DNA of 64,000 bases from Platanthera guangdongensis (Eukaryota > Streptophyta > Magnoliopsida > Asparagales > Orchidaceae): positions 146,337,010 to 146,401,009 of the forward strand of contig CM077167.1 in NCBI GenBank assembly GCA_039583875.1, written 5' to 3'. Shown piece by piece: positions 11,895 through 49,972 of the stretch. The translations under genes and the position numbers were made by a program. The notes beneath the pieces were generated by a model that was given only the letters and a program-made list of their open reading frames with translations, made no database searches and was not told the origin of the DNA. How positions within the stretch are numbered: the first letter of the stretch is position 1; every line of letters starts with the position of its first letter.

Positions 11895-11895
11895 A

Positions 11896-15420: not shown

Positions 15421-15434
15421 GCGTCGAACCCTAA

Positions 15435-15440: not shown

Positions 15441-15554
15441 ACTCTTTTTTCGGTCGTCGTTCTCCCTTGTGCTTCATACTTTCTGCAAAACTCTCTTTCC
15501 CTCCAAACTTCTCTACACTTGGTCGTTTGGTTGTTTATTGTTTTGCAGGAATCA

Positions 15555-18508: not shown

Positions 18509-18658
18509 TTCTGTAAGGTGACAGTTATTTTAATTTCTGATCTATCTGAGATTATGTCTGTGATTCTGCAATGTCTTGTTTGTTATATTGTTGCTTTGTA
18601 TATGTTTTTAATTTTCCAATATCTGTAAATAATAATCCTAACCCAAATAGGGGGAGAT
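18509..18658 (+). other. Element C 3' untranslated region and polypurine tract
   Basis: An A/T-rich stretch without ORFs ends in AGGGGGAGAT directly before the 3' LTR, the purine tract that primes plus-strand DNA. The same AAATAGGGGGAGAT occurs before D1's 3' LTR. Confidence 0.85.
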
Positions 18659-24760: not shown

Positions 24761-25032
24761 ATGAGTGACATACAGCCCTGCCAGCTAGGTGAGAGCCCGT
24801 CAGCGGGATCTACTGGAGGTCCGGGGTTGATACCATCGAGTGACTTCCAGCCCTGACAGCTAGGTGAGAGCCTGACAACGGGATCTACTCGAGATCTAAG
24901 GATGACACCGAGTGACTTCCAGCCCTGTCAGCTAGGTGAGAGCCTGACAGCGGGATCTGCTCGGGGTCCGGGATTGATACCATCCAGTGACTTCCAGCCC
25001 TGCCAGCTAGGTGAGAGTCTGACAGCGGGATC
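24761..25032. repeat. Element B dimeric tandem array, first part
   Basis: Units of about 72 and 75 bp alternate, sharing cttccagccctg(t/c)cagctaggtgagagcctgacagcgggatc and differing in the joining segment (ggtctaaggatgacaccgag versus ggtccggggttgataccatcgag). About four units are present. The array is interrupted by D1 at 25032 and continues at 38098 and 52174. Confidence 0.95.
25028..25032. other. Target-site duplication of element D1, left copy (ggatc)
   Basis: ggatc recurs at 38093-38097, directly after D1's 3' LTR. Confidence 0.95.
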
Positions 25033-25175
25033 TGTTGGGTACATTGGTCAAATGTACCTGATTTGAAGAAGCCTCACCTAACTCAATGATATACATCAGA
25101 ATGTATTTGATGTTTGTTTGAGTTACTTGTGCATGTTAGTTATACACTGGACTGAAGCTGAAAATTTCTAAGTCC

Positions 25176-26055
25176 ATGTGTCGACACCCAGAGGGAAAGT
25201 GTCGACACTTGAGAAAGCTTGTGTCGACACCCAGACAAGCAGTGTCGACACTTGGAGTCATTGTGTCGACACTTGGGAAGAAGAGTCGACACCAGTCAGA
25301 AAGTGTCGACACTTGGAGCTGTGTCGACACTCTGTGTAGAAGAATGCAGAAAAGCTGTGTCGACACTTGGCAGAAGTGTCGACACCTAGAAGAGCTGAGT
25401 CTACATCAGAAAGTGTCGACACTTGGAGTTGTGTCGACACTCAGCAAAATTCTGCAGAGACTAAGTACAAGTGTCGACACTCAACACAATGTGTCGACAC
25501 TCAATCAGCAGAGTCAAAATATGAAGAATGTGTCGACACTCAACACAATGTGTCGACACACACTCAAAGGAGTCAACACTTGAAGATTGTGTCGACACTC
25601 AGCACAATGTGTCGACACATAACCAGAAGACTCAACACTTGAAGAAAGTGTCGACACAAGGAGCTGTGTCGACACTTAGCAAAGAACAGAAAAGTTGTAA
25701 AATATTCTAAGTACAAGTGTCGACACTAAAGGAATGTGTCGACACTCAGCTGAAGAAACAAGATTGAAGACTTGTGTCGACACCAAGAAGCAGTGTCGAC
25801 ACTTGACAGTTTCAACACATGAAGATGTGTCGACACAAAGGAGATGTGTCGACACTTAGAAGAATACAGATAAAGAATGAAGTACAAGTACTTGTGTCGA
25901 CACTCAATTTCAGTGTCGACACATGCAGAAGAAACTGTGTCGAGACATACAAGGAATTGTGTCGACACCTTGTAGACTTGTGTCGACACTTACACAACAT
26001 GTGTCGACACTTGGTCTATAAGTGTCGACACTTAAGAACAGAAAGTCTCGACACT
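25176..26055. repeat. Array of the 10-bp palindrome GTGTCGACAC in D1's 5' LTR U3
   Basis: About 31 exact or nearly exact copies of GTGTCGACA(C) plus several one-base variants (GTGTCGAGAC, GTCTCGACAC) occur in 880 bp, spaced roughly 15-45 bp apart by unrelated AG-rich sequence. The palindrome contains no stop in any frame, which opens spurious ORFs on both strands. The last copy lies about 130 bp before the TATA box. The same array is at 36165-37045. Confidence 0.98.
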
Positions 26056-26187
26056 AACTGACAGTTAGAGAATTTCAAGAAGTGACTGGTTGACATGACA
26101 GCTGCCGATCCAGCCGGTCTACATCAACTGTTAGAGAAGTCAGAAGTCTGTTATGAACCGGACCAGCCGGTTACCATGAAGGAAGCC

Positions 26188-26196
26188 TATAAATAG
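26188..26196 (+). promoter_or_regulatory. D1 5' LTR TATA box
   Basis: TATAAATAG follows the palindrome array; the transcript would start about 30 bp further on. The copy in the 3' LTR is at 37177-37185. Confidence 0.75.
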
Positions 26197-26649
26197 GCCC
26201 CCCATAGTTTACAGAAAAAATAGATAGAAGGTTGTTCATTATCATTACATGTTGAGAGAATAACTGAAGTGGTTGATCAGATTAAATCAAGAAGTGATAC
26301 ATAGAGGATCAACACAAGAAGATCAGGCAGTCCAACTGCAGATCTAAGTAGTTGGAGAGAGAGAGCTCCAACCAAGGATTCAGTCTTTGGAACTAAGGCT
26401 GAGAAGAACAATTCAGAGTCATCTGGATTTCAAGAAGCAGAGATCAAGGATCAACTGCAGTAGATTCAGACTAATTCAGTTCTACTCAAGAAGCTTTGAA
26501 GAAAGCTAAGTCAGTTTGGATCAAGCTGAGTTCTTCCAAGAACTCTTCAAGAAACTCTCAACTCCTCTCATCCTTTCTGAGTTGTAGAGTTAGCATTTGT
26601 AATTTCTATTTTAAACTTGTAAGATCCATTGGATCTGAGTGATTGTAAG

Positions 26650-26820
26650 CCTATTTTATAAAGGCTGAGGGTAGGGCTTGGTGCCTGAGTGTAGGAGTTG
26701 AAGAACTCTGAGTGTAGGCCTTTAATTGGCTGAGTGTAAGCCTTGATTGGCTGAGTGTAGGCCTGGGTGGCTGAGTGTAGGCCTTTTGGCTGAGTGTAAG
26801 GCTTTGGGCCTGAGGTAGGA
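26650..26820 (+). repeat. Short GGCTGAGTGTAGGCC repeats in D1 LTR R/U5
   Basis: About seven imperfect copies, 15-27 bp apart, downstream of the TATA box and thus in the RNA leader. D2 has the reverse-complement version at about 39095-39240 and 50275-50410. Confidence 0.85.
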
Positions 26821-27105
26821 ACCTTGTTGGGTTCTGAGCTAGTGGAGAAGTTTGGCCGAATCTAGTACACTGCTAGATAGGCGAAGAGGGAAAGTGGATG
26901 TACCCAAAGATTGGGGAACCACTATAAAATTAGTGTGTCTTCTGTGCTGTGCTGTGCTGTGAATTGAATGCTTAATTTCTGTATTTGCTGTTAGCTGTAG
27001 TAATCAGTGAAAAACTGTTGTGCTGCCAAACAAAAGTCTAAAAAGGTTTAGGTCACCTATTCACCCCCCCCCCCCTCTAGGTGTTTAGGTACCATATCTT
27101 TCAAG

Positions 27106-27123
27106 TGGTATCAGAGGGAGGTT
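27106..27123 (+). promoter_or_regulatory. D1 primer-binding site
   Basis: TGGTATCAGAG matches the initiator-Met tRNA complement, followed by GGAGGTT where D2 has CCAGGTT. It starts two bases after the LTR end. Confidence 0.9.
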
Positions 27124-27217
27124 CCTCAAAATCAGGACTAACTGTCTGAGGAGATCCAGGTTTGGCAGATTCAGTATAAGTCAGGAAACAGGAAACAGTT
27201 TCAAGAAAATCAAGAAC

Positions 27218-28741
27218 ATGGGTTCTTCAGAGAATCATAAGGAGTTGGGTTCAATGAAACTACCTATATGCAGAAAAGAGATCTTTGGGATCTGGAAAGA
27301 GAGGGTTAGGCTTTTTATGGAAGCCTCTGACCCTAGGATATACATCACAGTCAAAGAAGGGCCATATGTGCCCATGAAGATTTCAGTATTGGATGCAAAT
27401 CAGAGGACTCCAAAGGATTTCTCTGAAATGACCAAGGATGAGATTGTCCTAGCAACCATGGACAAAAGAGCACAGAATATAATAGTTAGTGCAATTGATG
27501 ATGCCACCTTCCAGAACCTTATTCACTGTAAAACTGCAAAAGAAATGTGGGACACCCTCATTGTCTATATGGAAGGTTCTGAAGAAGTAAGGCAAGATAG
27601 GAAGTCCTTGCTTAATCAAGAATATGAGAGCTTTAGGCAAGGAAGAGGAGATAGCATCACTGAATGCTACAAGAAATTTTATAGAATTGTAAATGAACTC
27701 ATGTCATATGGAAGAGAGTTCACAAACTATGAGTTGAATGATAAATTCTTAAGGTCCCTCACCAAAGACTGGGACACCAAGATCTGTGCCATCAGAGAAA
27801 TGGCAAAGTTGGGAGAAATTCCTCCTCCCACACTTTTTGGCAAGTTGTTATCTTATGAGATGCAATTGTCAGTGAGAAAAGAAGAAGAAAAGTCAACAAG
27901 GACTGAATACAGAGAAAAGACTGTTGCCTTTAAGTCAGATGTACCCAGAAAGAGCAGGACCAAGTCATCAACTCCTCCTCCTGAGGTAGTTGAATCAGAA
28001 TCTGAAGAGTCAGAAAGTACAAAATCTACAAGCAGTGAAAGTGATGAAGACTTTGCTGCATTCACCAGACATTTTCAGAAGTTCCTTAAGAAGAAACAGT
28101 GGAGGTCTAGACCTTCATCTTCCAAAGGGAAAGAGGTTCAGTATCAGGAAAAGAAGCCTTCAAAGAAGGACAAGAAAAGGACCAAGACTAGTAAGGCAAC
28201 TGGATCCAAGATAATTTGTTACTGCTGCAATAGACAGGGCCATGTTATTGCAGACTGTCCTGAAAGAAGGAAAGAATCCAGTGACAAAAAGAAAACACAC
28301 TTCAAAGGAAAGAAGGAGAAGTCCTTTGTTGCAAAGAATGAGAAGACTCTTTCAGATATGTCTTCTTCAGACACTGAGACAGATGCTGAAGCCTATATTG
28401 GGCTATTTGCTGAGGAAGAAGAAGAGTTTATGCAGATCATGGAATCTATCTATGAGCAAGAAGACTGTCAAAGCCAAGGACTGATGGCTTTGACTGAAAG
28501 TACCAAAAACCTGGAGCAGCCAGGACCCAGTCAGGTACAAGGTTTAACTCAAAGTTCTGATTCCAGTTCTAGTTCAGAGTCAGATTATTCTTCATCAAGT
28601 GATGAGAATATATCTGAGTCTGAGGGAGATATTCATCAACTCCTAGATGAATATCAAGTACTATTGCAAGCCTATAAGAAAAGCAAGACCCTAGCCAAAA
28701 ATTTGGCCAAGGAAATTGCTGATCTCAAGCAGCTGCAATAG
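27218..28741 (+). pseudogene. D1 gag, main frame
   Basis: 507 codons from the ATG at 27218 (MGSSENHKELGSMKLP). The N-terminal half has the copia gag fold: YICR-type KEIFGIWKERVRLFMEA, AKEMWDTLIVYMEGSEEV, QEYESFRQGRGDSITECYKKF. The first zinc knuckle (CYCCNRQGHVIADC) is near residues 340-355, after a Lys-rich, Ser/Glu-rich region. A Ser/Asp-rich acidic tail and coiled coil (VLLQAYKKSKTLAKNLAKEIADLK) follow. By comparison with D2, one G is missing near 28731, so translation stops at 28741 instead of running into the second knuckle. It forms the virus-like particle. Confidence 0.9.
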
Positions 28742-29256
28742 ATTATGAGAAGAATTATGATCAAAAACTGAATGAAGTGGCCAGGCTGAAACACATTACT
28801 GTGATTCAGATGGGTACTATTACATTTAAGAATGATCAAATTAAGAAACTGGAGATTAATCTTCAGAAGGAGAAAGAGCTAGCAGCTAGGTTTTCAAAAC
28901 CTAAATCAGTGCTACCCTTGATTGATGATTTTGTTCATCATAAAGGAAAGACTGGACTGGGTTTTGTTAATCCAGCTAGGACTGTTCAGGATCAGTCCAA
29001 GTCCAAGGGCAAAGCCCCAACATTCAACAAGACTGCTGTAGTTAAGACAGCTAAGTCAGAACCTAAGCAAAGGTACAACAAATTTGAATGTTGGTGCTGT
29101 GGCAAGGTTGGCCACTTTGCTTTGGATTGTTGGCACAATGCCAGTGCCAAGTTGTGTAGCAAGTTACCTGTTGGAAAGACAGCAGGTAGCTATGTCAAAT
29201 TGCAAACTAACAATCACCAAGGACCCAAGTTTACTTTGGGTTCTAAGGTTCATTAA
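28742..29256 (+). pseudogene. D1 gag C-terminal part with a second zinc knuckle
   Basis: This continues gag one frame over: a coiled coil (KLNEVARLKHITVIQMGTI) and Lys-rich stretch, then a second CCHC knuckle (CWCCGKVGHFALDC) at about 29092-29133. It ends in TAA (29254-29256) just seven bases before pol in the same frame. The gag stop is kept in D2 as well, so it is a real family feature. Confidence 0.85.
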
Positions 29257-29262
29257 TTTGTT

Positions 29263-30430
29263 TTGCAGGAAAATCCAAGTGGCCATACCCCTACATGGTA
29301 CTTGGATAGTGGATGTTCCAGACACATGACTGGAACTAGGGGACTACTGAAGGACTACATCCCAATCAAAAATGGTCCAAAGGTGACCTTTGGTGGTTCT
29401 GAAAAAGGAATCATCAAAGGGTTTGGTAACATTTCTTCTAACCTTGTTACCATTACTCAAGTGGCTTATGTTAAAGGGTTGAAACACAACCTCATTAGTA
29501 TAAGTCAATTAAGTGATGTAGGGTATGACATCTCATTTGTTAAAAATGGTTGTCATATCAAGAGGTCAAGTGATCAAAAGATCATTTTGACAGGTTATAG
29601 GAAGAGAAATGTCTATTGTTTAGACATTATGGTTGAGAACAATAGTTCTCCAGTTTGTCTTGTAGCTGATGAGACAGTCTCTCAATGTGTCAAGTGGCAC
29701 AAGAGGCTTGCTCATCTTAATTACAAGACTATTGGCAAACTCTTTAGTAAAGAGTTAGTGAGGAATGGTCCTCAAGTTAAGTGTGTCAAAGATGGCATTT
29801 GCTCAGCTTGTCAAAAGGGCAAGCAGACTAAATCCACCTTTAGAAGCATTGACAACAAGGATGCTGTGAGGTGTTTATACCTCTTGCATATGGATCTATT
29901 TGGTCCAATGCCAGTTCACAGCTTAGGTAGGAAGGTCTACACCTTTGTAGTTGTTGATGACTACTCAAGGTTTTCCTGGGTGTTCTTCTTAAAGCAGAAA
30001 TCTGAAACACCTAGTGTCTTCCACAGTTTTGTTAAGGGCAAATTCAGAATGAATTGAACTGTACAGTGGTCAAAATTAGAAGTGACCATGGTACAGAGTT
30101 TCAATCTGAAAGCATGACAAAGCTGTGTGAAACTATGGGATATTTCAAGAATTCTCTTCACCTAGAACACCTCAGCAAAATGGCATTGCTGAAAGGAAAA
30201 ATAGGACCTTGATAGAGGCTGGTAGAACCCTATTAAGTGATTCATCACTGCCAGAATATTTCTGGGCTGAAGCAGTTAACACTGCATGCCATGTGATAAA
30301 TAGGGCTACCATCACTAAAAGGTTAAACAAGACCCCCTATGAAGTAGTGAAAGGCAGGAAACCAAATCTATCCTATTTAGGATCTTTGGTTGTAAATGCT
30401 TCATACTTAACAATGGGAAGTCTTACTTAA
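29263..30430 (+). pseudogene. D1 pol, protease and integrase
   Basis: It opens in frame after the gag stop with the protease motif WYLDSGCSRHMTG. Pre-integrase KWHKRLAHLNYKTIG, zinc-binding CSACQKGKQTK and integrase core (LLHMDLFGP, VVVDDYSRF) follow. Against D2, a two-base insertion near 30034 ends the frame at 30057; a one-base loss near 30131 and another near 30380 shift it again. Catalytic Asp (RSDHGTEF) and Glu (NGIAERKNRT) codons are present but in different frames. All breaks are small indels; no nonsense substitution was seen. Confidence 0.9.
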
Positions 30431-32429
30431 CTAAGTTTGCTGCCAAGTCCCAAGAGGGAGTGTTTGTTGGGTACAGCAATAATAGTAAGGCTTATAGAGT
30501 CTACAACTTGACTACACAAGTTGTAGAGGAATCTGTGCATGTAGTTTTTGATGAGTCACAACTAATTAACAATGAGTTGTCTAGTAGTGTGTGCAGCCCC
30601 TCAGGTCTTATTAAGAAGATGGACAAGCTAACCATAGAAGATGTACCTGCTGCAAGACAGCAAGTAGAAGAAGATGGCTTATGTCCAGGGGAGAACTACA
30701 TGTACCAGGAGCTGAAGAAGTTCAAGGAACTCAGCATGATGAAGATGCTGAAGAAGTACAACCAGAAGTAAGGATGCCTCCAGCCAACAGGCATCTAAGA
30801 GATCATCCAGTGGAGCTGATCATTGGAGATCCAAGACAAGGTGTTCAGACAAGGAGCAGAAATCAGAATGCTGCAGTATATTCAAGTTTTCTGTCTCAAA
30901 TAGAACCAAAGAAATTTGAAGAAGCAATACAAGATCCACAGTGGACTGAAGCTATGCAGGAAGAGCTAAACCAGTTCAAGAGGTGCAAGGTTTGGGACTT
31001 AGTTCCTAAGCCTAAAGATCACAATGTGATAGGAACAAAGTGGATCTACAGAAACAAGTTAGATGAACAAGGAGTCATCATTAAGAATAAGGCAAGACTG
31101 GTTGCAAAAGGATATAGGCAAGAAGAAGGTATTGATTTTGATCAAACCTTTGCTCCAGTAGCCAGACTGGAAGCCATCAGGATGTTCTTGGCCTATGCAA
31201 CCTACCAAGGATTCAAAGTATACCAAATGGATGTGAAGTCAGCATTCCTTAATGGTAATTTAAAAGAAGAAGTATATGTGGAGCAGCCTTCAGGTTTTGT
31301 TGATCCTACTCTTCCACATTATGTCTATAGACTTAGGAAAGCATTGTATGGGTTAAAGCAAGCTCCTAGAGCTTGGTATGAAACCCTATCTAGTTTCCTC
31401 ATTGAGAACAAGTTCACAAGGGGGAAAATAGATAAGACTCTATTCCTTAGGGAATCTAGAGGCAAAGTAATACTTGTCCAAATATATGTAGATGACATTA
31501 TATTTGGGTCTACTGAAAGTAGCCTTTGCAAAAAGTTTGCAAAGCTTATGCAAAGTCAATTTGAAATGAGTAGTATGGGAGAACTGAAGTTTTTCTTGGG
31601 TCTCCAAGTTAAACAGACTGAAAGTGGCTTGTCCATATGTCAGTCAAAGTTCACCCTAGAACTCATAAGGAAATATGGTATGGATTCCTCCAGTACCATG
31701 AAGACTCCTATGGGGTCAAGTATGTCTCTAAGCAAGGATGATGCAGGGAAACCTGTGGATGAAACCTTGTATAGAGGGATAGTTGGCTCCCTACTATACT
31801 TGACTGCAAGTAGGCCTGACATTATGTATGCTACATGTGTTTGTGCCAGGTATCAAGCCTGCCCCAAAGAATCTCACTTGACTGCAGTCAAGAGAATCTT
31901 GAGATATCTAAAGGGCACACCTTATCTAGGCCTCTGGTACCCTAGGAATGGAGATTTTGATCTAACAGGCTATTCAGATGCAGACTTTGCAGGATGCAAA
32001 GAAGATAGAAAGAGCACAACTGGATCCTGTCAATTCCTAGGTGGAAGACTCATTTCATGGAGTAGTAAGAAGCAAACCAGTGTGGCCATCTCCACAGCTG
32101 AGTCAGAATATGTAGCTGCAGGAAGTTGCTGTGCTCAACTTCTGTGGATTCAACATCAGCTAGAAGACTATGGATGTCAGGTAAGTAGAACTCCACTTTA
32201 TTGTGATTCTACAAGTGCTATTTCCATAGCTAATAACCCTGTATCACATAGTAGAACTAAACATATTGAGATAAAATATCACTTTCTTAGGGAGCATGTA
32301 GAAAGAAATGATATTGCACTTGAATATGTTAAAACAGATAATCAGATAGCTGATATGTTTACTAAGCCCTTAGAAGAAGCTAAGTTTAATAAGTTCAAAA
32401 TTGAACTAGGTATGATAAACTTAGACTAA
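30431..32429 (+). pseudogene. D1 pol, integrase C-terminus, reverse transcriptase and RNase H
   Basis: A first frame (to 30771) carries [31 protein letters not shown]. One G is missing from a G-run near 30690 compared with D2, moving to the frame that runs intact to 32429. That frame has RT ([61 protein letters not shown] at 31485-31496, [15 protein letters not shown]) and RNase H ([38 protein letters not shown], then [11 protein letters not shown]). All catalytic acids are kept, so RT-RNase H may still be translatable. Confidence 0.93.
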
Positions 32430-32460
32430 GTATACAGAACAAAAATTGGCTAAGTAAAAA

Positions 32461-32800
32461 GGTGTCGACACATAGACAAGTCTATGTCGACACAGAATAG
32501 TAAGTGTCGACACTTCAGGAAAATGGTGTCGACACATCTAGGAAGTTAGTGTCGACACTTCAGAATGTTAGTGTCGACACATGTCGAGTAGGTGTCGACA
32601 CATCCAAACAAGTGTCGACACTTAAGTTTTACTCAGAAATTTTCTAAGTAAAGTCTCGACACATGTCGAGTATAGTGGTGTCGACACTTAACCAAGTGTC
32701 GACACATAAAATCTGTTGACTAAATTTGTGTCGACACATGAGTGTCGAGACATTATAAGTCAGTGTCGACACTTATTGACAGTGTCGACACATCATTAGA
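32461..32800. repeat. GTGTCGACAC array upstream of D1 ORF3
   Basis: At least 12 exact palindromes plus variants fill the gap between the pol stop and ORF3. The motif equals that in the LTR U3, though spacer sequences differ. Two more half-copies follow the TATA box (32862, 32898). Confidence 0.97.
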
Positions 32801-32836
32801 AATTCATCCCGCCTGTTCGTCTTCAAACAAGAAAGG

Positions 32837-32845
32837 TATAAATAG
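32837..32845 (+). promoter_or_regulatory. Candidate internal TATA box for D1 ORF3
   Basis: TATAAATAG lies 37 bp after the palindrome array and 106 bp before the ATG at 32943. It is the same nine bases as in the LTR TATA box and is conserved in D2. Confidence 0.65.
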
Positions 32846-32942
32846 GGTTCTGTCTTTGATTGTCGACACGCTTTCAAAGTTTCGAGACCTAAACTCTTGT
32901 GTCGACATTTCTCTCATCTCAAGACTAATTCTCAAAACCCTA

Positions 32943-34904
32943 ATGGCTCCCAAGCTGGAAGAGAACGTAAACGAAGGCTATGAGCTTGTGCGAGGCGCAT
33001 TTGACGACAGCGACCAAGAAATCAAATCAGTAATAACCCTAATTGCCAATTCAGGGTTGGAGTTCTTTGTTTCAGAACCAACGAAAATATGGAAGAAGGA
33101 AGTCATTGAATTCCTTTCTGGCGCGTCTGTAGATGACTCAGGCTACAGGATTAAGTCAAGGGTGCATGGCACCAAGGTCAAGATTTCACCCAAGTCTTTA
33201 AGAAAGGTACTTCAGCTACCTAAAGTTCAAGATGAAGAGGAAGTAACTGCTTCTAAGACCAGGGAAGCTCTTACTTGGTGTGGACTGGATCCAAAGATGA
33301 AGGTGGGATCAGTCTTTAACAGAAAAGGTATGAATAATCAAGGCAAGTTCTTGTCAGAAATAGTGGGCAAGGTAATACTAAGCAAGCCAGGAGGACATGA
33401 CAGGGTGTCTGCCTCCATGTTTGAAGTCATGACCAGAATCATCTTCCATCTGAAAACAGACTGGTCAATGGTGGTTTATGAAAAAGTGAAGGAAAGCCTG
33501 AAGAAGCCCAATCTGGGCAGGATACTAAGTCTCTACCTGGCTGGATCAATTCCAGAGGTAATGAGCACTGCTGCAGGAACTAAGATCAATCATATGAGGA
33601 AGATGGACTCAAGAATATTCTCTAGATGGGAAAGGGTGCTGGTGTCAAAGGAATTGACCACCCCTAAAAAGCAAGCTTCTAAGAAAGACTCTCCTCCCAG
33701 GAAGAAGAGGAAGACTGCTGCTGTGCCTCAAGAGTCCTCCAGCAGCTCAGGCAGTGAAGAACATGTGGTCTTCACTCCTGAAAGTCCAGTTGATGTGGCT
33801 GCAGAGAAGACACCTGCTCCTCAGGAGGCAGCTGACATCCAGGGGGAGCTTCCAGGTGTAGCAGAACCATCTACACTGGAGAGTGAACAAGCCACCCTCC
33901 TCATTCAAGAGGTACTTGTTGATCTTAATACTTTGAACTTTTCTATAATAAATTCTGATTTGTCTGATGATCATCAGCAAAATCAGCCAGCAACTCTAGA
34001 ACCAGATGTTGTTCTCCAAGACACATCTGTTGTAGCTGATGAAACCAGAACATCTCCTGCACAGTCTCCAGCAGAATATACAATGGAAGATCTCTTTTTG
34101 AACTTAGATCAAGAAGATTTTGATATGGAAAAGAATGCAGCTGATGCAGTAAAGGATGCTGCTGCTGAGGGGGAGAATTTGGATATTCAAGAAGAGCCTA
34201 TAAGGCTAGATACTGAGAAGGCACAAGATGTGCATACTGAAAAACAATCCAGCCCTAAGGATAGGGTGGATATAGCCAGTACATCAGACTCTGAAGATGA
34301 TGAAGCTGAGCAAGCTCAGAAAAAGAAGTTCTTTGTTTTCAAAAGAAGAAGCCAGAGCTATAAGAAGGCTCTCCAAACAGTTGCTCAACATTCCTTAGTT
34401 CAACAAGCTCCATCCACTGATTACAGTGCTCTACTGCTTGCCATGCAAATCAAGATGGATGAACAAAGGAAAGCTTTAGAAACTTATGTTGATGAAGGGC
34501 ACAAAGCTCTACAATCTGATCTGGGACAGGAAATCAAGTCAATAAGGTTTGAAATGAACCTTAATAAAAAGGAGATGACTGATTGTTTTACTAAGGGTGC
34601 TCATGCAGTGGTCTATCTAGCTAAACATCAAGAAACAATTAAAGAGAAAGTAGAAGATATAGCAGTAAAACAAGGCTATGTGCTGGAGAATCAGTTGAGG
34701 ATGAATGATAATTTGACTGCATCTCACAATGCAATAGTCACTGAACTCAAGAATAAGTCAGATGAACCTTCAACTTCCTCTGCTGCTGCCAAAGCTGATT
34801 TTGATAAACTCTTTCAAGCAGAGATTGCTGCTGTAAAGACTGCCATTAAAGACTCACAGAAGGTCATTTCAGAACAGCTTACAAAGCTTAGACCTTTCTT
34901 TTAA
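32943..34904 (+). pseudogene. D1 ORF3 accessory protein, N-terminal and central part
   Basis: The ATG at 32943 (MAPKLEENVNEGYELV) is chosen because sequence before it is only the motif array. A globular N-terminus of about 230 residues follows: EPTKIWKKEVIEFLSGASV, SPKSLRKVLQLP, GKFLSEIVGKVILSKPGGHD, LGRILSLYLAGSIPEV and INHMRKMD. It resembles the 'putative plant transposon protein' region of SIRE-type accessory ORFs. Then comes a basic cluster PPRKKRKTAAV (about residue 252), like a nuclear localisation signal. A long acidic Ser/Glu-rich stretch follows, a second basic patch (KKKFFVFKRRSQSYKKALQ) and an extended coiled coil. A one-base T insertion near 34901 ends the frame. No membrane segment is seen. 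Function unknown. Confidence 0.85.
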
Positions 34905-35724
34905 AGAGGGCATAAGGTATTTGGATGGCCAAATCAGATTCCAGAAAGATGATGTGAGAGATCATGTGGCCCAAGAAGTCATAAAGGGGGAGAGAGTGTT
35001 AGTCAAGGCCAGTTCTGAACATGCAAAATGGATATCAAATTCCATCAGGGCTACACTGGGCTATCCTCCCCTTTGTGATGATGACAATGTAGCTGACTCT
35101 GGCATTCAAGGCACATATCTTGGAGGTGAGCAACAAGCAGTGGCTGATGTAATCTATCCACCTCCAGACTTTGACATGATTCATGCAGATATAAGCACAA
35201 TGTATAGTCCACCTGCTGGCAAGCCTAATATTATTCTGGAAAAGGTTGTTCAACCTATCACAGCTGCAATGCAAGAGGCTTTGGACAAAGAAGAAGAAAC
35301 TAGGCTGTCAAAGAAGAAGTTTAGGGAAATTGCTGAGCAAAAGCCAGATTTTGAACAGTGGAGCCCTACTTCTAGGAACATAATTCTTACAGCCTGGAAA
35401 GCAGCCAAGGACAATGCCCATGAAAGGAACAAGTGGTTCTCAGAGGCTGAATGGAGAAAGCATGAGAGTAGGCAGGAAGCAATTGTCCAATATAGAAGGA
35501 AGGCTAAGTTAGGAAAGCTACCTCCAACAGCTGTGGAGCCTAGCAAGTACTTTCCTAAGCCCTATCATTATTTTGAAAGACAAAAGATCAAGGCTGAAGA
35601 ACAGAAGAAGAAGGACTCTAAAGGGAAGAAGACTGCTGAAGCTGAGCCTGCTGCTGCTGCTGCTGTGAAAGCTCAAGTTAAAGCTGGAAAAGGCATTGTT
35701 ATTAAAGAACCTGATCAGCACTAG
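34905..35724 (+). pseudogene. D1 ORF3, C-terminal part after a frameshift
   Basis: It continues ORF3 one frame over: GQIRFQKDDVRDHVAQEVIKG, ASSEHAKWISNSIRATLGYP, then a charged helix-rich region (EEETRLSKKKFREIAEQKPDFEQW, KWFSEAEWRKHESRQEAIV), a PKPYHYFERQKIKA motif and a Lys/Ala-rich tail. The stop is TAG at 35722-35724. D2 has the same sequence split at a different point, so both copies are broken independently. Confidence 0.85.
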
Positions 35725-36021
35725 ATTAGGAATTAACTTGATGCTTGTTGTAATTTGTTGAGTGAAAAACATTGTAATACTTCATTGAAAATGTATAAGG
35801 AACATTATTGGAACAGTATATGATAAATATAGTATGAATGTTCTGAAATATGTGTGTTTCTTAATTGTTCTGCAATGTTTAATAAGTATACATGTGTGCT
35901 TTATTACATGTTCAAGTTTACCCTGTTGTCATTTATATGTTTTACATCATTTTGTAATTTTTAATTATGAGTGGTGTATATCATTGACTAAGGGTTATGA
36001 CTTCTCCAAATAGGGGGAGAT
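35725..36021 (+). other. D1 3' untranslated region and polypurine tract
   Basis: A/T-rich without ORFs; it ends AAATAGGGGGAGAT (36008-36021) against the 3' LTR, the plus-strand primer. Confidence 0.9.
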
Positions 36022-38092
36022 TGTTGGGTACATTGGTCAAATGTACCTGATTTGAAGAAGCCTCACCTAACTCAATGATATACATCAGAATGTATTTGAT
36101 GTTTGTTTGAGTTACTTGTGCAGGTTAGTTATACACTGGACTGAAGCTGAAAATTTCTAAGTCCATGTGTCGACACCCAGAGGGAAAGTGTCGACACTTG
36201 AGAAAGCTTGTGTCGACACCCAGACAAGCAGTGTCGACACTTGGAGTCATTGTGTCGACACCTGGGAAGAAGAGTCGACACCAGTCAGAAAGTGTCGACA
36301 CTTGGAGCTGTGTCGACACTCTGTGTAGAAGAATGCAGAAAAGCTGTGTCGACACTTGGCAGAAGTGTCGACACCTAGAAGAGCTGAGTCTACATCAGAA
36401 AGTGTCGACACTTGGAGTTGTGTCGACACTCAGCAAAATTCTGCAGAGACTAAGTACAAGTGTCGACACTCAACACAATGTGTCGACACTCAATCAGCAG
36501 AGTCAAAATATGAAGAATGTGTCGACACTCAACACAATGTGTCGACACACACTCAAAGGAGTCAACACTTGAAGATTGTGTCGACACTCAGCACAATGTG
36601 TCGACACATAACCAGAAGACTCAACACTTGAAGAAAGTGTCGACACAAGGAGCTGTGTCGACACTTAGCAAAGAACAGAAAAGTTGTAAAATATTCTAAG
36701 TACAAGTGTCGACACTAAAGGAATGTGTCGACACTCAGCTGAAGAAACAAGATTGAAGACTTGTGTCGACACCAAGAAGCAGTGTCGACACTTGACAGTT
36801 TCAACACATGAAGATGTGTCGACACAAAGGAGATGTGTCGACACTTAGAAGAATACAGATAAAGAATGAAGTGCAAGTACTTGTGTCGACACTAAATTTC
36901 AGTGTCGACACATGCAGAAGAAACTGTGTCGAGACATACAAGGAATTGTGTCGACACCTTGTAGACTTGTGTCGACACTTACACAACATGTGTCGACACT
37001 TGGTCTATAAGTGTCGACACTTAAGAACAGAAAGTCTCGACACTAACTGACAGTTAGAGAATTTCAAGAAGTGACTGGTTGACATGACAGCTGCCGATCC
37101 AGCCGGTCTACATCAACTGTCAGAGAAGTCAGAAGTCTGTTATGAACCGGACCAGCCGGTTACCATGAAGGAAGCCTATAAATAGGCCCCCATAGTTTAC
37201 AGAAAAAATAGATAGAAGGTTGTTCATTATCATTACATGTTGAGAGAATAACTGAAGTGGTTGATCAGATTAAATCAAGAAGTGATACATAGAGGATCAA
37301 CACAAGAAGATCAGGCAGTCCAACTGCAGATCTAAGTAGTTGGAGAGAGAGAGCTCCAACCAAGGATTCAGTCTTTGGAACTAAGGCTGAGAAGAACAAT
37401 TCAGAGTCATCTGGATTTCAAGAAGCAGAGATCAAGGATCAACTGCAGTAGATTCAGACTAATTCAGTTCTACTCAAGAAGCTTTGAAGAAAGCTAAGTC
37501 AGTTTGGATCAAGCTGAGTTCTTCCAAGAACTCTTCAAGAAACTCTCAACTCCTCTCATCCTTTCTGAGTTGTAGAGTTAGCATTTGTAATTTCTATTTT
37601 AAACTTGTAAGATCCATTGGATCTGAGTGATTGTAAGCCTATTTTATAAAGGCTGAGGGTAGGGCTTGGTGCCTGAGTGTAGGAGTTGAAGAACTCTGAG
37701 TGTAGGCCTTTAATTGGCTGAGTGTAAGCCTTGATTGGCTGAGTGTAGGCCTGGGTGGCTGAGTGTAGGCCTTTTGGCTGAGTGTAAGGCTTTGGGCCTG
37801 AGGTAGGAACCTTGTTGGGTTCTGAGCTAGTGGAGAAGTTTGGCCGAATCTAGTACACTGCTAGATAGGCGAAGAGGGAAAGTGGATGTACCCAAAGATT
37901 GGGGAACCACTATAAAATTAGTGTGTCTTCTGTGCTGTGCTGTGCTGTGAATTGAATGCTTAATTTCTGTATTTGCTGTTAGCTGTAGTAATCAGTGAAA
38001 AATTGTTGTGCTGCCAAACAAAAGTCTAAAAAGGTTTAGGTCACCTATTCACCCCCCCCCCCCCTCTAGGTGTTTAGGTACCATATCTTTCA
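36022..38092 (+). repeat. Element D1 3' LTR (2071 bp)
   Basis: Nearly identical to 25033-27103. The GTGTCGACAC array is at 36165-37045 and the TATA box at 37177-37185. Differences include gtgcaggtta for gtgcatgtta near 36122 and one C fewer near 37189. Confidence 0.98.
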
Positions 38093-38097
38093 GGATC
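38093..38097. other. Target-site duplication of element D1, right copy (ggatc)
   Basis: Identical to 25028-25032. Confidence 0.95.
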
Positions 38098-38788
38098 TAC
38101 TCGAGGTCCAAGGATGACACCGAGTGACTTCCAGCCCTGTCAGCTAGGTGAGAGCCTGACAGTGGGATCTGCTCGGGGTCCGGGGTTGACACCATCGAGT
38201 TACTTCCAGCCCTGCCAGCTTGGTGAGAGCCGGACAGCGGGATCTGCTCGAGGTATAAGGATGACACCGAGTGACTTCCAGCCCTGTCAGCTAGGTGAGA
38301 GCCTGACAGCGGGATCTACTCGGGGTCCGGGGTTGATACCATCGAGTGACTTCCAGCCCTGCCAGCTTGGTGAGAGCATAACAGCGGGATCTGCTCAAGG
38401 TCTAAGGATGACATCGAGTGACTTCCAGCCCTGTCAGCTAGGTGAGAGCCTGACAGCGGGATCTGTTTGGGGTCCGGGGTTGATACCATCGAGTGACGTC
38501 CAGCCCTGCCATCTAGTGAGAGCCTAACAGTGGGATCTGCTCGAGGTCTAAGGATGACACCGAGTGACTTCCAGCCCTATAAGCTAGGTGAGAGCCTGAC
38601 AGCTGGATCTGCTCAGGGTCCGGGGTTGACACCATCGAGTGACTTCCAGCCTTGCCAGCTAGGTGAGAGCCTGACAGCGAGATCTGCTCGAGGTCTAAGG
38701 ATGACACTGAGTGACTTCTAGCCCTGTCATCTAGGTGAGAGCCTGACAGCGGGATCTGCTCGGGGTCCGGGGTTGATACCATTGAGTG
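38098..38788. repeat. Element B dimeric tandem array, second part
   Basis: Nine to ten units of 72/75 bp alternate between D1 and D2. Because both unit lengths are multiples of three and lack stops, long ORFs open on both strands (for example 38114-38527 plus); these are not considered genes. Confidence 0.95.
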
Positions 38789-38793
38789 ACTTC
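38789..38793. other. Target-site duplication of element D2, left copy (acttc)
   Basis: acttc recurs at 52169-52173 after D2's 5' LTR. Confidence 0.95.
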
Positions 38794-40989
38794 TGAAAGA
38801 TATGGTACCTAAACACCTAGAGGGGGGGGGGGGTGAATAGGTGACCTAATCCTTTACTAACTTTGTTGGCAGCCAAACAGTTATATCACAGATTTCTAAC
38901 TAGTTTATTACAGCAATCAGCAATAATCAAACAAACACAGATCATCCACAGCACAAACACAGCACAGCACACAGTGTTTTATAGTGGTTCCCCAAGATAT
39001 GGGTACATCCACTTTCCCCCTTCGCCTATCTAGCAGTGTACTAGATTCGGCCTAACTTCTCCACTGTCTCAGAACCCAAATTGGTTCCTACCTCAGGCCC
39101 AAAGCCTTACACTCAGCTTTATCCCAAAGCCTACACTCAGCCAATCAAGGCCTACACTCAGCCAATCCAAGGCCTACACTCAGCCAACAAGGCCTACACT
39201 CAGAGATCACAATCTCCTACACTCAGGCAAACAAGCCCTATCCTCAGCCTTTATAGATATAGGCTTACAATCACTCAGATCCAATGGATCCTACAAGTTA
39301 TAAAAGTAATACAGATAATAACTCTACAACTCAGAATTAAAGGAGGGGAGTTGAGAGATTCTTGATGAGTTCTTGGAAGAACTCAGCTGGATTCACCCTG
39401 ACTTAGCTTTCTTCAAAGCTTCTTGAGTAGAACTGAATAAGGCTGAATCATCTGCAGTTGTTCCTTGACCTCTACTACTTAAGATCCAGAATTGATTCTG
39501 AATCCTTCTTCTCAGCCTAGTTCTAGAGGCTGATTTCTTGGAAGGAGCCCTCTCTCTCCAACTTCTTAGATCTGAAGTTGGACTGCCAGATCTTCTTGTG
39601 TTGATACTCAGTATACCACTTTTATGATTACTTCAACAATAATCTGAACTCTGTTAACAATTTGATCAACAACCTCAACAACTTCACAATCACCCTTTCT
39701 GTAAACTGTAGGTGCCTACTTATAGGCATTCTTCATGATAACCGGCTGGTCCGGTCCATAACTGACTTCTGACATCTCTGACAGGTGCTGTAGACCGGCT
39801 GGATCGGCAGCTGTCATGTCAACCAGTCACTTCTTGAAAATCTCTAACTGTTTATAAGTGTCGAGACTTTCTGTCTTTAAGTGTCGACACTTATAGTCCA
39901 AGTGTCGACACATGATGTATAAGTGTCGACACAAGTCTACAAGGTGTCGACACAATTCCTTGTATGTCTCGACACAGATTCTTCTGCATGTGTCGACACT
40001 GAAATTGAGTGTCGACACAAGTACTTGTTCTTCTAGCTTTAGCTGAATTCTTCTAAGTGTCGACACATCTCCTTTGTGTCGACACAACTTCTTGTGTTGA
40101 ATCTGTCTAGTGTCGACACTGCTTCTTGGTGTCGACACATAGTCTTCTATGTTGAATCTTGCTGAGTGTCGACACAGCTCCTTGTGTCGACACACCTTCT
40201 TGTTGTTGAGACTTCAGCTGAGTGTCGACACATTTCCATAGTGTCGACACTTGTACTTAGAATAATTTGTAGTTCTTTCTGTTCTTTGCTAAGTGTCGAC
40301 ACAGCTCCTTGTGTCGACACTTTCTTCAAGTGTTGAGTCTTTAGCTGTGTGTCGACACATTGTTCTGGGTGTCGACACATACTTCAAATGTTGACTCTTC
40401 TGTTGAGTGTCGACACATTGTGTTGAGTGTCGACACATTCTTCAAGTGCTGACTCTTCTGCTTAGTGTCGACACATTGTGTTGAGTGTCGACACTTACTT
40501 CAAGTGCTGACTCTTCTGCATAGTGTCGACACATTGTGTTGAGTGTCGACACTTGTACTTAGACTCTGCAGACTTTTGCTGAGTGTCGACACAGCTCCAA
40601 GTGTCGACACTTTCTGGTGTAGACACAGCTTCACTGAGTGTCGACACAGCTCCTTGTGTCGACACTTTCTGTCTGCACTTTTCTTCACTGGGTGTCGACA
40701 CAGCTCCAAGTGTCGACACTTTCTATCTGGTGTCGACTCTGCATCCCAGGTGTCGACACAATGACTCCAAGTGTCGACACTGCTTGACTGGGTGTCGACA
40801 CAAGCTTGCTCAAGTGTCAACACATTCCCTCTGGGTGTCGACACATGGACTTAAAAACTTTTAGCTTCAGTCCAGTACTTTCTTAACCTGCACAAGTAAC
40901 TCAAACATACATCAAATACATTATGATGTATATCATTGAGTTGGGTGAGGCTTCTTCAAATCAGGTACATTTGACCAATGTACCCAACA
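38794..40989 (-). repeat. Element D2 3' LTR (2196 bp)
   Basis: On the minus strand it starts TGTTGGGTACA at 40989 and ends ATATCTTTCA at 38794. The palindrome array lies at about 39860-40845. The TATA box is mutated to TATAAGTAG (39716-39724), while the 5' LTR keeps TATAAATAG. The purine tract is just outside (40990-41001). Confidence 0.97.
39860..40845. repeat. GTGTCGACAC array in D2's 3' LTR
   Basis: More than 30 copies, same palindrome as in D1, with some decay (GTGTCAACAC at about 40815, GTGTAGACAC at about 40617). ORFs on both strands here are by-products. Confidence 0.97.
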
Positions 40990-41287
40990 ATCTTCCCCTA
41001 TTTGGAGAAGTCATAACCCTTAGTCAATGATATAAACCATTCATAATTAAAAATTACAAAATGATGTAAAGCAGATTATAATCAGCAGGGTTAACATGAA
41101 CATGTAAAACTTCACACATATACACATTCAACATTGCAGAATGAACAAGGAATAGACACATACTCAGAACAATCATGAAAATATATTTATTATAAATTGT
41201 TCTAACATTTTTCTAATACATCTTTAATGATTTACAAAAATGTTTCTCATACAAAAGATTACAACAATCTTCAAATTAATTCCTAAT
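40990..41287 (-). other. D2 3' untranslated region and polypurine tract
   Basis: Non-coding A/T-rich sequence; the minus strand ends AATAGGGGAAGAT against the 3' LTR. Confidence 0.85.
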
Positions 41288-41734
41288 CTATTTCTGATCA
41301 GGTTCTTTGATAACAATTCCTTTGCCAGCTTGGACTTTAGCCTTGACAGCAGCAGTAGCAGTAAGCTCCCCATCAGCAGGCTTCTTGCCTTTTAGATCTT
41401 TCTTGTCTGCCTTGATCTTTTGTCTCTCAAAATAATGATAGGGCTTAGGAAAGTACTTGTTAGGCTCCACAGCTGTAGGAGGTAGCTTTCCCATCTTAGC
41501 CTTCCTTCTGTGCTGAACAATGGCTTCTTGCCTGATCTCATGCTTCCTCCATTCTGCTTCAGAGAACCACTTGTTTCTATCAGTAGTGTTGTCTTTAGCA
41601 GCTTTCCAGGCAGTAAGAAATATGTTTCTAGAGGTAGGACTCCATTGTTCAAAGTCTGGCTTTAGTTCAGCTTGTTCCCTAAACCTCTTCTTTGACAACC
41701 TTGCCTCTTCTTCTTTGTCTAAGGCCTCTTGCAT
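41288..41734 (-). pseudogene. D2 ORF3, C-terminal part after a frameshift
   Basis: 148 codons equivalent to the end of D1 ORF3: EEEARLSKKRFREQAELKPDFEQW, KWFSEAEWRKHEIRQEAIV, PKPYHYFERQKIKA and a Lys/Ala-rich tail ending EPDQK. It is separated from the main ORF3 frame by a one-base loss near 41790-41800 compared with D1. Confidence 0.85.
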
Positions 41735-41763
41735 AGCTGCTGATATAGGTTGAACAACCTTTT

Positions 41764-44121
41764 CTAAATAGACATTGTCCTTGCCCTCAGATGGCTATAC
41801 ATTGTGCTCACCTCTGCTTGAATCATTTCAAAATTTGGAGGTGGATAAATGACTTGAGCTACTTCTTGTGGCTCACCTCCAAAATATGCAGGGTTCAGTC
41901 CAGATTCAGCAACTTCATTGTCATCACACAGAGGAGGGTATCCAAGTGTAGCCCTGATTGAATTTGATATCCATTTTGCATGCTCAGAACTTGCCTTGAC
42001 TAACACTCTCTCCCCCTTTATGACTTCTTGGGCAACATGATCTCTTACATTATCCTTCTGGAATCGGATTTGACCATCCAAGTACCTGATTCCATCTTTA
42101 AAGTAAGGTCTAAGCTTTGTAAGTTGTTCAGAGATTGCTTTCTGGGAATCTTGTATTGCAGTTTTGACAGCAGTAATCTCAGCTTGGAATATTTTATCAA
42201 AGTCAGCCTTTGCAGCAGCAGATGTAGAAGGTTCAGCAATCTTATTCTTCATTTCTGTGAGTAAAGCATTATGTGACTCAGTTAGATTATCATTCATTCT
42301 TAACTGATTCTCCAGCACATAAACTTGCTTTAATGCTATATCATCTACCTGAGTCTTGATCTTCTCCTGATGAGTGGCCAAATAGACTACTGCATTCCCA
42401 CCCTTGTGGAAGCAGTCAGTCATTTCTTTCTTGTTCAGGTTCATCTCAAACCTTATTGATTTTATATCTTGAGCTAAATCAAATTGTAAAGACTTTTGTC
42501 CTTCATCAATATACTTCTCTATGGCTCTCCTGTGCTCATCCAGCTTGATTTGCATGGCTACCATTAAGGCACTGTAATCAGGTGAAGGAGCTTGTGTGAC
42601 TAAGGATTGTTGAGCAACAGTTTGTAGAGCCTTCTTGTAGCTCTGACTTCTTCTTTTGAATACAAACAATTTCTTCTTCTTGGCCCTAGCACTTTCCTCA
42701 TCTTCAGAGGCAGAGGTGCTGGCAATATCAACTCTAGTCTTAGGGCTCCCAGGCCTCTCAGTTTGCACAGCAGGTGCTTGCTCAGTTTCCAGCCTAATAG
42801 GCTCTTCCAGAACTTCCATGTGCTCCCCCTCAGCAGCAGCACTCTTATCTTCAGCAGCAGCAACCTTGTCCATGTCAAAATCCTCTTGATCTAAATTCAA
42901 AAACAAATCTTCCATTGTATATTCATGAGGGGATGGAGCTGGAGATAGTCTTTGCTCTTCAACCACTGACTCAGGTACCACTCCTTGTTCAGCAGATTTG
43001 TCTTCTAAAACAACATCTGGAACTTGTTTGTCTAGCTGAGTTTGCTGATGGACATCAGACAAATTAGCATCTTCTATAATATAGTCTAAAGATTTTAAGT
43101 CAATGAGTACCTCTTGGATAATGATGGTGGCTTGCTCACTTTCTAGAGTAGATGGTTCTTCTACTACTGGAAGCTCCCCCTGGCTGTGATCCCTATGGAT
43201 GGGGCTTGCTTGAGGCAGCTCCCCCTGGATCTCAGCTACATCTTGAGGAGCCGGAGTCTTTACCACTGTCTCTTCCTCCTGATCATCAGGTGTGAACACC
43301 ACCTGTTCTTCACTTTCAGAACTGTTGGAGGACTCTTGTGCCACAGCAGCAGTTTTTCTCTTCTTCCTGGGAGGAGTGATTTTCTCAGTAACTTGCTTCT
43401 CAGGGGTAGGCATATCCTTTGACAGCACCCTTTCCCACATAGACAAGATCCTCATATCCATTTTTCTCATATGATTGATCTTGCTTCCAGCAGTAGTGCT
43501 CATTACCTCTGGTATTGTACCAGCCAGGTAGAGACTTATAATTCTGCCCAGATTGGGCTTCTTCAGACGTTCCTTGATCTTTTCATAGATTACCATTGAC
43601 CAATCTGTTCTTATGGTGAGGATAATTCTTGTCATGATATTGAACATTGAGGCTGACACCCTGTCATGCCCTCCAGGCTTACTGAGAATGACCTTGCCCA
43701 CTATTTCAGACAGGAATTTTCCTTGACTGTTCATGCCTTTCCTGTTAAAGACAGAACCTATCTTCAGCTTTGGATCAAGTCCACACCAGGTAAGAGCTTC
43801 CCTGGTCTTGGATGTAGAAACTTCTTCTTCATCTGTAGTCTTAGGTAGCTGGAGTACCTTCCTCAGACTTTTTGGTGAGACCTTGACTTTGGATCCATGC
43901 ACTCTGGATTTAATCCTATATCCAGAGTCATCAACTGCAGCTCCAGTAAGGAATTCAAGAACTTCCTTCTTCCAAATCTTGGTTGGTTCTGAAACCAAAT
44001 ATTCTAGTCCAGAATCGCTGACTAGGGTTACCACCGATTGAATTTCTTGATCTCCATCATCGAACGCGCCACGCACAAGTTCATAGCCTTCGTTAATGTT
44101 CTCCTCGAGTTTGGGAGCCAT
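41764..44121 (-). pseudogene. D2 ORF3 accessory protein, main part
   Basis: From the ATG at 44121 (MAPKLEENINEGYELV) the frame is open for about 785 codons, longer than D1's. It keeps the N-terminal globular region (SEPTKIWKKEVLEFLTGAAV, FLSEIVGKVILSKPGGHD, GRIISLYLAGTIPEV), the NLS-like PPRKKRKTAAV, the acidic middle, FVFKRRSQSYKKALQ, the coiled coil, and the GQIRFQKDNVRDHVAQEV segment that is out of frame in D1. The frame is open further upstream to 44385 only because the motif array lacks stops. The ORF ends at a frameshift near 41795. No membrane segment or signal peptide is seen. Function unknown; its conservation in two copies suggests it was under selection when they moved. Confidence 0.88.
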
Positions 44122-44218
44122 TAGGGTTTGGAGAATTAGTCTTGAGAAAAGAGAAATGTCGACACAATAGTTGTGGTCTCGAAACTTTGAAAGCGTGTCG
44201 ACAATCAGAGACAGAACC

Positions 44219-44227
44219 CTATTTATA
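44219..44227 (-). promoter_or_regulatory. Candidate internal TATA box for D2 ORF3
   Basis: The minus strand reads TATAAATAG 98 bp before the ORF3 ATG, in the same place as in D1. Confidence 0.65.
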
Positions 44228-44269
44228 CCTTTCTGATTTTGAAGGTGAACAGGCGGGACAGCTAGCTTA

Positions 44270-44598
44270 ACATGTGTCGACACTGACTTATAATGTCTCG
44301 ACACACATGTGTCGACACAAGTTTTGTCAACAGATATTATGTGTCGACACTTGGTTATGTGTCTACACAACATAACTCGACACATTGTCGAGACTTTACT
44401 TAGAAAAATTCTGAGTAAAACCTAAGTGTCGACACCATATTGGATGTGTCGACACCTACTTGTCATGTGTCGACACCTACTTGTCATGTGTCGACACTAA
44501 CATTCTGAAGTGTCGACACCACATTCCTAGATATGTCGACACGTTTTTCCTGAAGTGTCGACACCACTATTCTGTGTCGACATAGACTTGTCTATGTG
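44270..44598. repeat. GTGTCGACAC array upstream of D2 ORF3
   Basis: About ten exact palindromes plus variants lie between the pol stop and the TATA box, with partly different spacing from D1 (a 23-bp unit is duplicated near 44448-44490). Confidence 0.97.
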
Positions 44599-44639
44599 TC
44601 GACACTTTTTTACTTAGCCAATTTTCTTATTCTGTAAAC

Positions 44640-46178: not shown

Positions 46179-46430
46179 AAAGCTGGAATAAATTGCAGCA
46201 TTCTGATATCTGCTCCTTGTTTAAACTCCTTGTCTTGGATCTCCAATGATCAGCTCTACTGGATGATCTCTAAGATGCCTGTGGGCTGGAGGCATCCTCA
46301 CTTCAGGTTGAACCACTTCAGCATCTGCATCATGCTGTATACCTTGGATTTCTTCAGCAGCTGGCACATGTAGTTCTCCCCCTGGACAGCAGCTACTCTC
46401 CTCTCCTTGCTGTCTTGCAGCAGGCACTTC
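46179..46430 (-). pseudogene. D2 pol linker between integrase and RT, two stops
   Basis: A Pro/Glu/Gln-rich linker ([40 protein letters not shown]). D1 has sense codons where D2 has TAA at 46428-46430 (GAA in D1) and near 46220 (CAG in D1). Apart from these substitutions it joins integrase and RT in one frame. Confidence 0.85.
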
Positions 46431-47807: not shown

Positions 47808-47813
47808 AACATA

Positions 47814-49856: not shown

Positions 49857-49954
49857 GTTTCTTGATGTTCTTGATTTTCTTGAAACTGTGTAATACCTTA
49901 CTCTGAATCTGCCAAACAGGATCTCCTCAGACTGTTAGTCCTTGTTTTGAGGAA

Positions 49955-49970
49955 CCTGGCTCTGATACCA
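49955..49970 (-). promoter_or_regulatory. D2 primer-binding site
   Basis: The minus strand reads TGGTATCAGAGCCAGG, a full match to the initiator-Met tRNA 3' end, two bases after the 5' LTR. Confidence 0.95.
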
Positions 49971-49972
49971 CT

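Follow-up and report, generated by a model that had tools for sequence, protein, structure and literature searches.

A candidate internal promoter with LTR-type palindromes upstream of the accessory ORF3 of a Sirevirus in Platanthera guangdongensis

How does an LTR retrotransposon express an accessory gene that lies downstream of pol? This question is raised by D1, an element in a 64,000-nucleotide stretch of the genome of the orchid Platanthera guangdongensis (contig CM077167.1; hereafter the window), in which a third open reading frame (ORF3) is separated from pol by a palindrome-rich linker. The expression and function of the ENV-like gene of Sireviruses are treated as unsettled in the literature available to us. 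Palindromic repeats have been reported in 13 of 21 Sireviruses, where they are located in the LTR before the TATA box (Bousios et al. 2010, PMC2829016). Nine of these 13, those with an ENV gene, also have repeats upstream of ENV (77 of 79 linker copies), and six other ENV-containing elements are without the boxes. The same source describes CpG islands both in the LTR and at ENV, where they lie upstream of its 5' domain or inside it. It takes the ENV-upstream repeats as favouring an internal promoter, not conclusively identified, and credits this hypothesis to Peterson-Burch and Voytas (2002). MASiVEdb (2012, PMC3414828) also includes an internal promoter among the mechanisms of ENV-like gene expression. 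The initial annotation of the locus had held that no motif-array promoter of this kind was described for SIRE-type elements, which is contradicted by the arrays and the internal-promoter view of PMC2829016. A later identification of a Sirevirus internal promoter was not found in our literature search, which was mostly judged by title or abstract opening and covered few subscription papers. No paper on plant retrotransposons was found, judged by title, among the listed matches to the letters GTGTCGACAC in print.

Three Sireviruses and their surroundings

D1 occupies positions 25033-38092 on the plus strand and is bordered by the target site duplication GGATC (25028-25032 and 38093-38097). Its LTRs of 2071 bp (5' LTR 25033-27103, 3' LTR 36022-38092) are 99.6% identical. 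Gag-pol spans 27218-32429 (5212 nt), with the RT-RNaseH part at 30681-32429 (RVT_2 match; stop codon 32427-32429), and is followed by ORF3 at 32943-34904 (653 aa to the stop). A second copy on the minus strand, C2, spans 38794-52168 (LTRs 98.8% identical), with gag-pol at 44643-49856 (5214 nt) and an ORF3 of 785 aa at 41764-44121. A third element, E3 (8188-20213, LTRs 96.6% identical), belongs to another family.

Judged by their polypurine tract, primer binding site (PBS), C-runs and copia-type domains, all three are Sireviruses (Ty1/copia). The polypurine tract AGGGGGAG with the AT/TG junction at the 3' LTR is exact in D1 (36012-36019, plus strand) and E3 (18649), and C2 reads AGGGGAAG instead. 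The Sirevirus PBS TATCAGAGC follows the 5' LTR of C2; D1 and E3 have TATCAGAGG, one base off. In each of the three, C-runs corresponding to the polyC integrase signal lie close to the LTR ends, and the copia-type gag/RT domains PF14223 and PF07727 are present.

D1 and C2 are inserted in opposite orientation, apparently in one 75/147-bp tandem array, of which pieces flank them at 24763-25033, 38093-38793 and 52169-52370; the target duplications at the two insertions are GGATC and ACTTC, respectively. The ORF3 frame of D1 stops earlier than that of C2 and of the related protein P0001, and a separate ORF in another frame then follows (34904-35724). The element nest is enclosed by an outer LTR-like pair (5854-6823 and 57962-58932, 93.4% identical), which looks like Ty3/gypsy-type and bears CTCGACGAAT-type repeats similar to the motif of E3. 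Ty3/gypsy-type RNase H and integrase pieces are found on the minus strand near 53.3-54.7 kb, within this outer pair.

The linker between pol and ORF3

The linker of D1 comprises the 513 nt from the pol stop (ending at 32429) to the ORF3 ATG at 32943 (32430-32942). It contains 12 exact copies of GTGTCGACAC, all at 32462-32791, five with one mismatch and one with two; the 12 exact and three of the one-mismatch sites lie upstream of a candidate internal TATA box, and the other three sites fall in the predicted leader. This TATA box, TATAAATAG, is located on the plus strand at 32837-32845, 106 nt upstream of the ATG. When the linker was shuffled 500 times with its dinucleotides preserved, TATAAATA turned up in 0.8% of the trials. 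The predicted leader (32868-32942) carries motif-like sites and no ATG. In the U3 of the 5' LTR, 31 exact copies of GTGTCGACAC (25178-26031) precede TATAAATAG at 26188-26196 on the plus strand; the 3' LTR has the same array, with TATAAATAG at 37177-37185. The initial annotation had described at least 12 palindromes between pol and ORF3, a TATA box at this position and distance, and the same order of elements in the U3, and all three descriptions agree with our counts. Exact GTGTCGACAC occurs 151 times in the window, every time inside D1 or C2, with 0 expected from 100 shuffles. D1, whose LTR and linker have 31 and 12 exact copies, corresponds to the definition of a Sirevirus RM array (a palindrome with at least eight copies, in the LTR and upstream of ENV), and its motif lacks the CGG-CCG core of Sirevirus RM.

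The initial annotation regarded the linker as a second copy of the regulatory unit of the LTR. This goes too far: when the motifs are masked, linker and LTR have only two 14-nt scraps in common (E 0.72), and the lack of homology beyond the motifs rules out an LTR unit copied into the linker. Sites are spaced by 18-23 in 7 of 11 linker steps, and for much of the LTR by 18-22 and 34-51 in turn. The last exact palindrome is followed by the TATA box after 45 nt in the linker versus 156 nt in the LTR. RYCGAC matches the D1 linker 30 times, the D1 U3 64 times and the E3 linker only 4 times, with no match in D1 gag-pol or D1 ORF3. GTCGAC fits RYCGAC, a barley CBF site in the PLACE database. A host CBF-type factor at GTCGAC is a candidate, as a lead only, because the enrichment follows from the palindrome itself.

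C2 offers a comparison within the window. It is 86.6% identical to D1 across an 8.7-kb match reaching from the 5' LTR into ORF3, and 81.6% across the following 2.9 kb. The whole C2 linker holds 10 exact, six one-mismatch and two two-mismatch palindromes (array 44274-44605), and TATAAATAG at 44219-44227 on the minus strand again lies 106 nt before the ORF3 ATG. Within the linker, the palindromes are identical between D1 and C2 at 137 of 140 bases (97.9%), the spacers at 173 of 208 (83.2%; Fisher p 5e-6). These are ungapped bases; since D1 and C2 each lack one array unit present in the other, gap columns (10 in motifs, 34 in spacers) were left out of the count. Other masks over 32430-32836 gave p values of 1e-7 to 1e-8, and the LTR arrays show the same contrast (p 5e-13 or lower). 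The block around the TATA box (32827-32868) is identical at 39 of 42 positions and the rest of the leader at 68 of 74, both above the third codon positions of ORF3 (60%); the stretch before the TATA block is identical at 21 of 29, with 4 gap columns. Since four of the five changed codons in the leader alter the residue, the leader is not conserved as protein, and its conservation seems to act on the DNA. The initial annotation had asked whether array and TATA box are kept in further copies while spacers drift, which is what C2, the one further copy in the window, displays; the absence of the TATA box from other copies, which it named as counter-evidence, is not borne out, as C2 keeps TATAAATAG at the same 106 nt.

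Part of this identity reflects regional history. ORF3 has a dS of 1.02 and a dN of 0.14 between D1 and C2 (dN/dS 0.14, some windows being saturated), RT-RNaseH a dS of 0.34 and a dN of 0.02. Linker spacers diverge about as much as the silent sites of pol or less, and pol is less diverged than ORF3, so the excess of linker and leader identity over ORF3 silent sites is partly regional. The contrast between motifs and spacers within the linker is independent of that history. As a separate observation from the compared interval 30681-34904, the roughly threefold silent divergence of ORF3 over RT-RNaseH hints at recombination between element lineages.

A further line of evidence comes from Platanthera protein models. 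In P0004, an automatic gene model of Platanthera zijinensis, an RT fragment is fused with ORF3. The segment at the junction reads GINRSRTYSVDTLTRFSRLKPCVD...MAPK, compared with GINRVLSLIVDTLSKFRDLNSCVD...MAPK when D1 is translated from the TATA box onwards. In the P0004 pattern GINR...VDTL...CVD...MAPK, GINR stands at the place of the TATA box and corresponds to GGTATAAATAGG in D1, and VDT and CVD correspond to motif-like leader sites. The two translations agree in 13 of 24 residues, a result equalled by 0 of 100000 shuffles, and the distances to the ATG (111 nt in P0004 versus 108 nt in D1) are one codon apart. P0006 has SVD 15 residues before the ORF3 start, the same distance as CVD in D1. 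P0004 is thus compatible with the same TATA box and leader, its underlying DNA being reconstructed from protein letters only.

E3 shows a comparable layout with a motif of its own. Half-sites of TCGTCGAAC, at up to one mismatch, number 12 in its 5' LTR (8373-8643), 9 in its 3' LTR and 8 in its linker (15154-15429), where 200 shuffles gave a mean of 0.34 and a maximum of 3. The linker array is followed by a candidate internal TATAAAA (15435-15441, plus strand) 120 nt before the ORF3 ATG at 15555. At up to one mismatch, the E3 motif is absent from the LTRs and linkers of D1 and C2, and GTGTCGACAC is absent from E3. As the motif is shared between LTR and linker within E3 and within D1/C2 but not across them, the linker motif follows the LTR motif in each family. 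The E3 LTRs have no TATAWAW on the strand of the element, and LTR and linker of E3 are not built alike in this respect. The match between LTR and linker is also less exclusive in E3 than in D1, because the motif forms a third cluster inside the gag/pol coding region (11513-11690, 8 sites at up to one mismatch) and has 12 sites in the outer LTR pair (6.5-6.9 and 58.6-58.9 kb).

CpG dinucleotides are distributed very unevenly. D1 gag-pol has 0 in 5212 nt and C2 gag-pol 1 in 5214 nt; TpG and CpA are over-represented there, and GpC is at a normal level. In the 513 nt of the D1 linker there are 23, which gives an observed/expected (o/e) ratio of 1.13 (1.20 for the array alone; islands were assessed by this ratio), and the LTR array has a ratio of 0.79. 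In D1 ORF3, all nine CpGs fall in the first 183 nt, and the 1114 nt after ORF3 have none; in C2, 8 of 11 lie within about the first 106 nt of ORF3, and in E3, 5 of 5 within about the first 165 nt, counted from 15556. CpGs of the D1 LTR lie within the array and up to the TATA box, with only 2 in the 907 nt downstream of it, a pattern unlike that downstream of the TATA box in the linker. On our reading, either CpGs have long been methylated everywhere but in the surroundings of the arrays and of the ORF3 start, or CpG is under selection in these places. As the D1 LTRs are 99.6% identical and gag-pol is nevertheless CpG-free, the depletion probably predates the insertion of D1. What this adds to the published CpG islands is the sharpness of the contrast.

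How ORF3 may be expressed

Taken together, an array of palindromes and, behind it, a TATA box at 106 nt from the ATG make it probable, on our reading of the DNA, that ORF3 of D1 has a Pol II promoter in the linker. A putative factor, encoded by the host or the element, would bind the palindromes, and the TATA box would set a start near 32868, as suggested by the distance from the TATA box and a CA step. The resulting RNA would carry an ATG-free leader of about 75 nt ahead of ORF3, and the ORF3 protein would be made from this linker-started RNA. Because identical sites also precede the TATA box of the LTR, the same trans-acting factor could act there as well and place genomic RNA and ORF3 mRNA under one switch. 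The proposal of the initial annotation that ORF3 is transcribed separately from an internal promoter is thus backed by the conservation in C2, by P0004, by the layout of E3 and by the CpGs over the ORF3 start; the transcription itself we infer. Counting against it are the missing TATAWAW in the E3 LTRs, the less exclusive distribution of the E3 motif, and the scarcity of CpG downstream of the LTR TATA box.

ORF3 could instead be translated from a subgenomic mRNA that starts in the LTR and is spliced, with the palindromes as enhancer or chromatin elements and the TATA box incidental, which we consider unlikely. Directly before the ORF3 ATG lie CT-rich stretches with a terminal AG in D1 (TTTCTCTCATCTCAAG), C2 (TTTCTCTTTTCTCAAG) and E3 (TTTATTGTTTTGCAG), as suits an acceptor and, judged from the sequence letters, most strongly so in E3. 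The acceptor of D1 and C2, however, would end in AAG, a rare splice acceptor triplet. Splicing would also leave the TATA box unneeded, yet it persists in C2, at an unchanged distance, and by protein letters in P0004 too, and CpG retention spans both the linker and the ORF3 start. From the literature, splicing draws support from BAGY2 and Athila, for whose env-like genes an acceptor has been predicted (PMC2829016). A 2020 review (PMC7264820) has env-like genes transcribed from the LTR promoter, which counts against an internal promoter.

We regard it as quite improbable that host silencing or repeat slippage mainly accounts for the arrays, as its target or by-product, with palindromes that fold as RNA and attract small RNAs but have no promoter role. 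The linker RNA is indeed much more stably folded than its own shuffles (z -11.2), one array unit of D1 is missing from C2 and one of C2 from D1, and the LTR palindromes of maize Sireviruses are hotspots of small-RNA mapping (PMC5311732). Relics of slippage should nevertheless decay like the spacers, whereas the motifs are conserved over them; the sites retain CpG where gag-pol has none; and the conservation of TATA box and leader would be left without an explanation.

Either of two further routes, SIRE1-like read-through at the end of pol or a longer N-terminus encoded by the linker, is extremely improbable. In their favour, D1 has pol and ORF3 in one frame, the ORF3 frame is free of stops between 32742 and the ATG, and that of C2 is likewise open upstream. 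Against them, seven further in-frame stops block the way from pol in D1 and rule out simple read-through of one stop, pol and ORF3 are in different frames in C2 and E3, and the leader changes between D1 and C2 mostly alter amino acids, which disfavours a coding N-terminus.

The ORF3 protein and comparable systems

The product of D1 ORF3 has a weak match to PF20167 (25 bits, under the 45-bit cut-off), and no Pfam match to DUF1985 or DUF287 was listed for ORF3 at a maximum E-value of 5, in a search whose filters discard most matches beyond about 0.1. Each protein search scored its best candidates, roughly 8000 in number; within these, all 6 hits of D1 ORF3 and all 8 hits of its profile were Platanthera proteins, as were 16 of the 17 hits of E3 ORF3; none of 540 pattern matches in viral contigs was a relative. 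The D1 and E3 types of ORF3 are distantly homologous (hhalign probability 98.6). Against solved structures, the ORF3 profile gave four matches with E-values of 0.09-0.13, to antiviral reverse transcriptases and diadenosine tetraphosphate hydrolase. The highest 19-residue hydropathy is 1.26 in D1 ORF3 and 1.25 in C2 ORF3, both below 1.6; the second ORF of E3 (17024-18073) reaches 1.71, a borderline stretch. D1 ORF3 contains an NLS-like RKKRK, a weak indication, as the pattern tested turns up in about 15% of shuffles. KKRK is also present in C2, P0001, P0003 and P0005, and was found neither in P0004 nor in the first E3 ORF. Given the lack of a hydropathy peak above 1.6 and the NLS-like stretch, 'envelope' is a doubtful name for D1 ORF3.

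By analogy with other systems, ORF3 itself might bind the palindromes, as a nuclear activator or anti-silencer instead of an envelope, which would keep the arrays free of methylation and switch on genomic RNA, a scheme to which we give little credence. The internal promoter would make ORF3, which would bind the identical sites in both promoters as in a two-promoter switch of the foamy virus type, with motif and protein co-evolving in each family like VANDAL arrays and VANC. Such a role is compatible with motifs that each family shares between its LTR and linker but not with the other family, and also with the NLS-like stretch, the hydropathy below 1.6, the CpGs of D1, mostly around arrays, TATA boxes and ORF3 start, and the dN/dS of 0.14. 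The presence of the E3 motif in the outer gypsy-like LTR pair counts against it.

VANDALs are DNA transposons that encode a transposase. They resemble D1 in combining fast-changing noncoding motif arrays with a fast-changing accessory protein, the anti-silencing factor VANC, and differ in that binding has been shown for VANC (PMC5735166, PMC10398659) and in that no DUF1985 match was listed for ORF3. In foamy viruses, as proposed for D1, an LTR and an internal promoter share one activator, Tas, and the internal promoter drives a regulatory gene, which we liken to ORF3; their two promoters are little related and the activator is viral, whereas the sites in D1 are identical and the factor is putative (PMC7390438). 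Maize Grande has an accessory gene with its own promoter between pol and the 3' LTR, gene23, whose product is nuclear, a further likeness (Gomez-Orte 2013, via PMC7264820 and PMC11963269). Unlike D1, Grande is of Ty3/gypsy type and the gene is antisense, and the accessible text of PMC7264820 does not mention a palindrome array shared with the LTR. The closest counterparts are the Sirevirus RM arrays of PMC2829016, which likewise comprise high-copy LTR palindromes before the TATA box, more of them between pol and the ENV-like gene, CpG islands, and a motif that differs between families. D1 differs from them in that GTGTCGACAC lacks the CGG-CCG core, which only Tnd-1 lacks in the published table, and in copy number, with 31 exact copies in each LTR and 12 between pol and ORF3.

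The TATA box and leader kept behind the array, the conservation of motifs over spacers, and the matching of LTR and linker motifs in two families are the additions of the window to the published pattern. A conserved TATA box behind LTR-type sites yields a precise predicted start site, a candidate promoter fragment and a defined DNA probe for the controlling factor. The CpG pattern suggests that, in the propagating lineage, both promoters are unmethylated or their CpGs are under selection, and this retention bears on how Sirevirus-type elements evade silencing.
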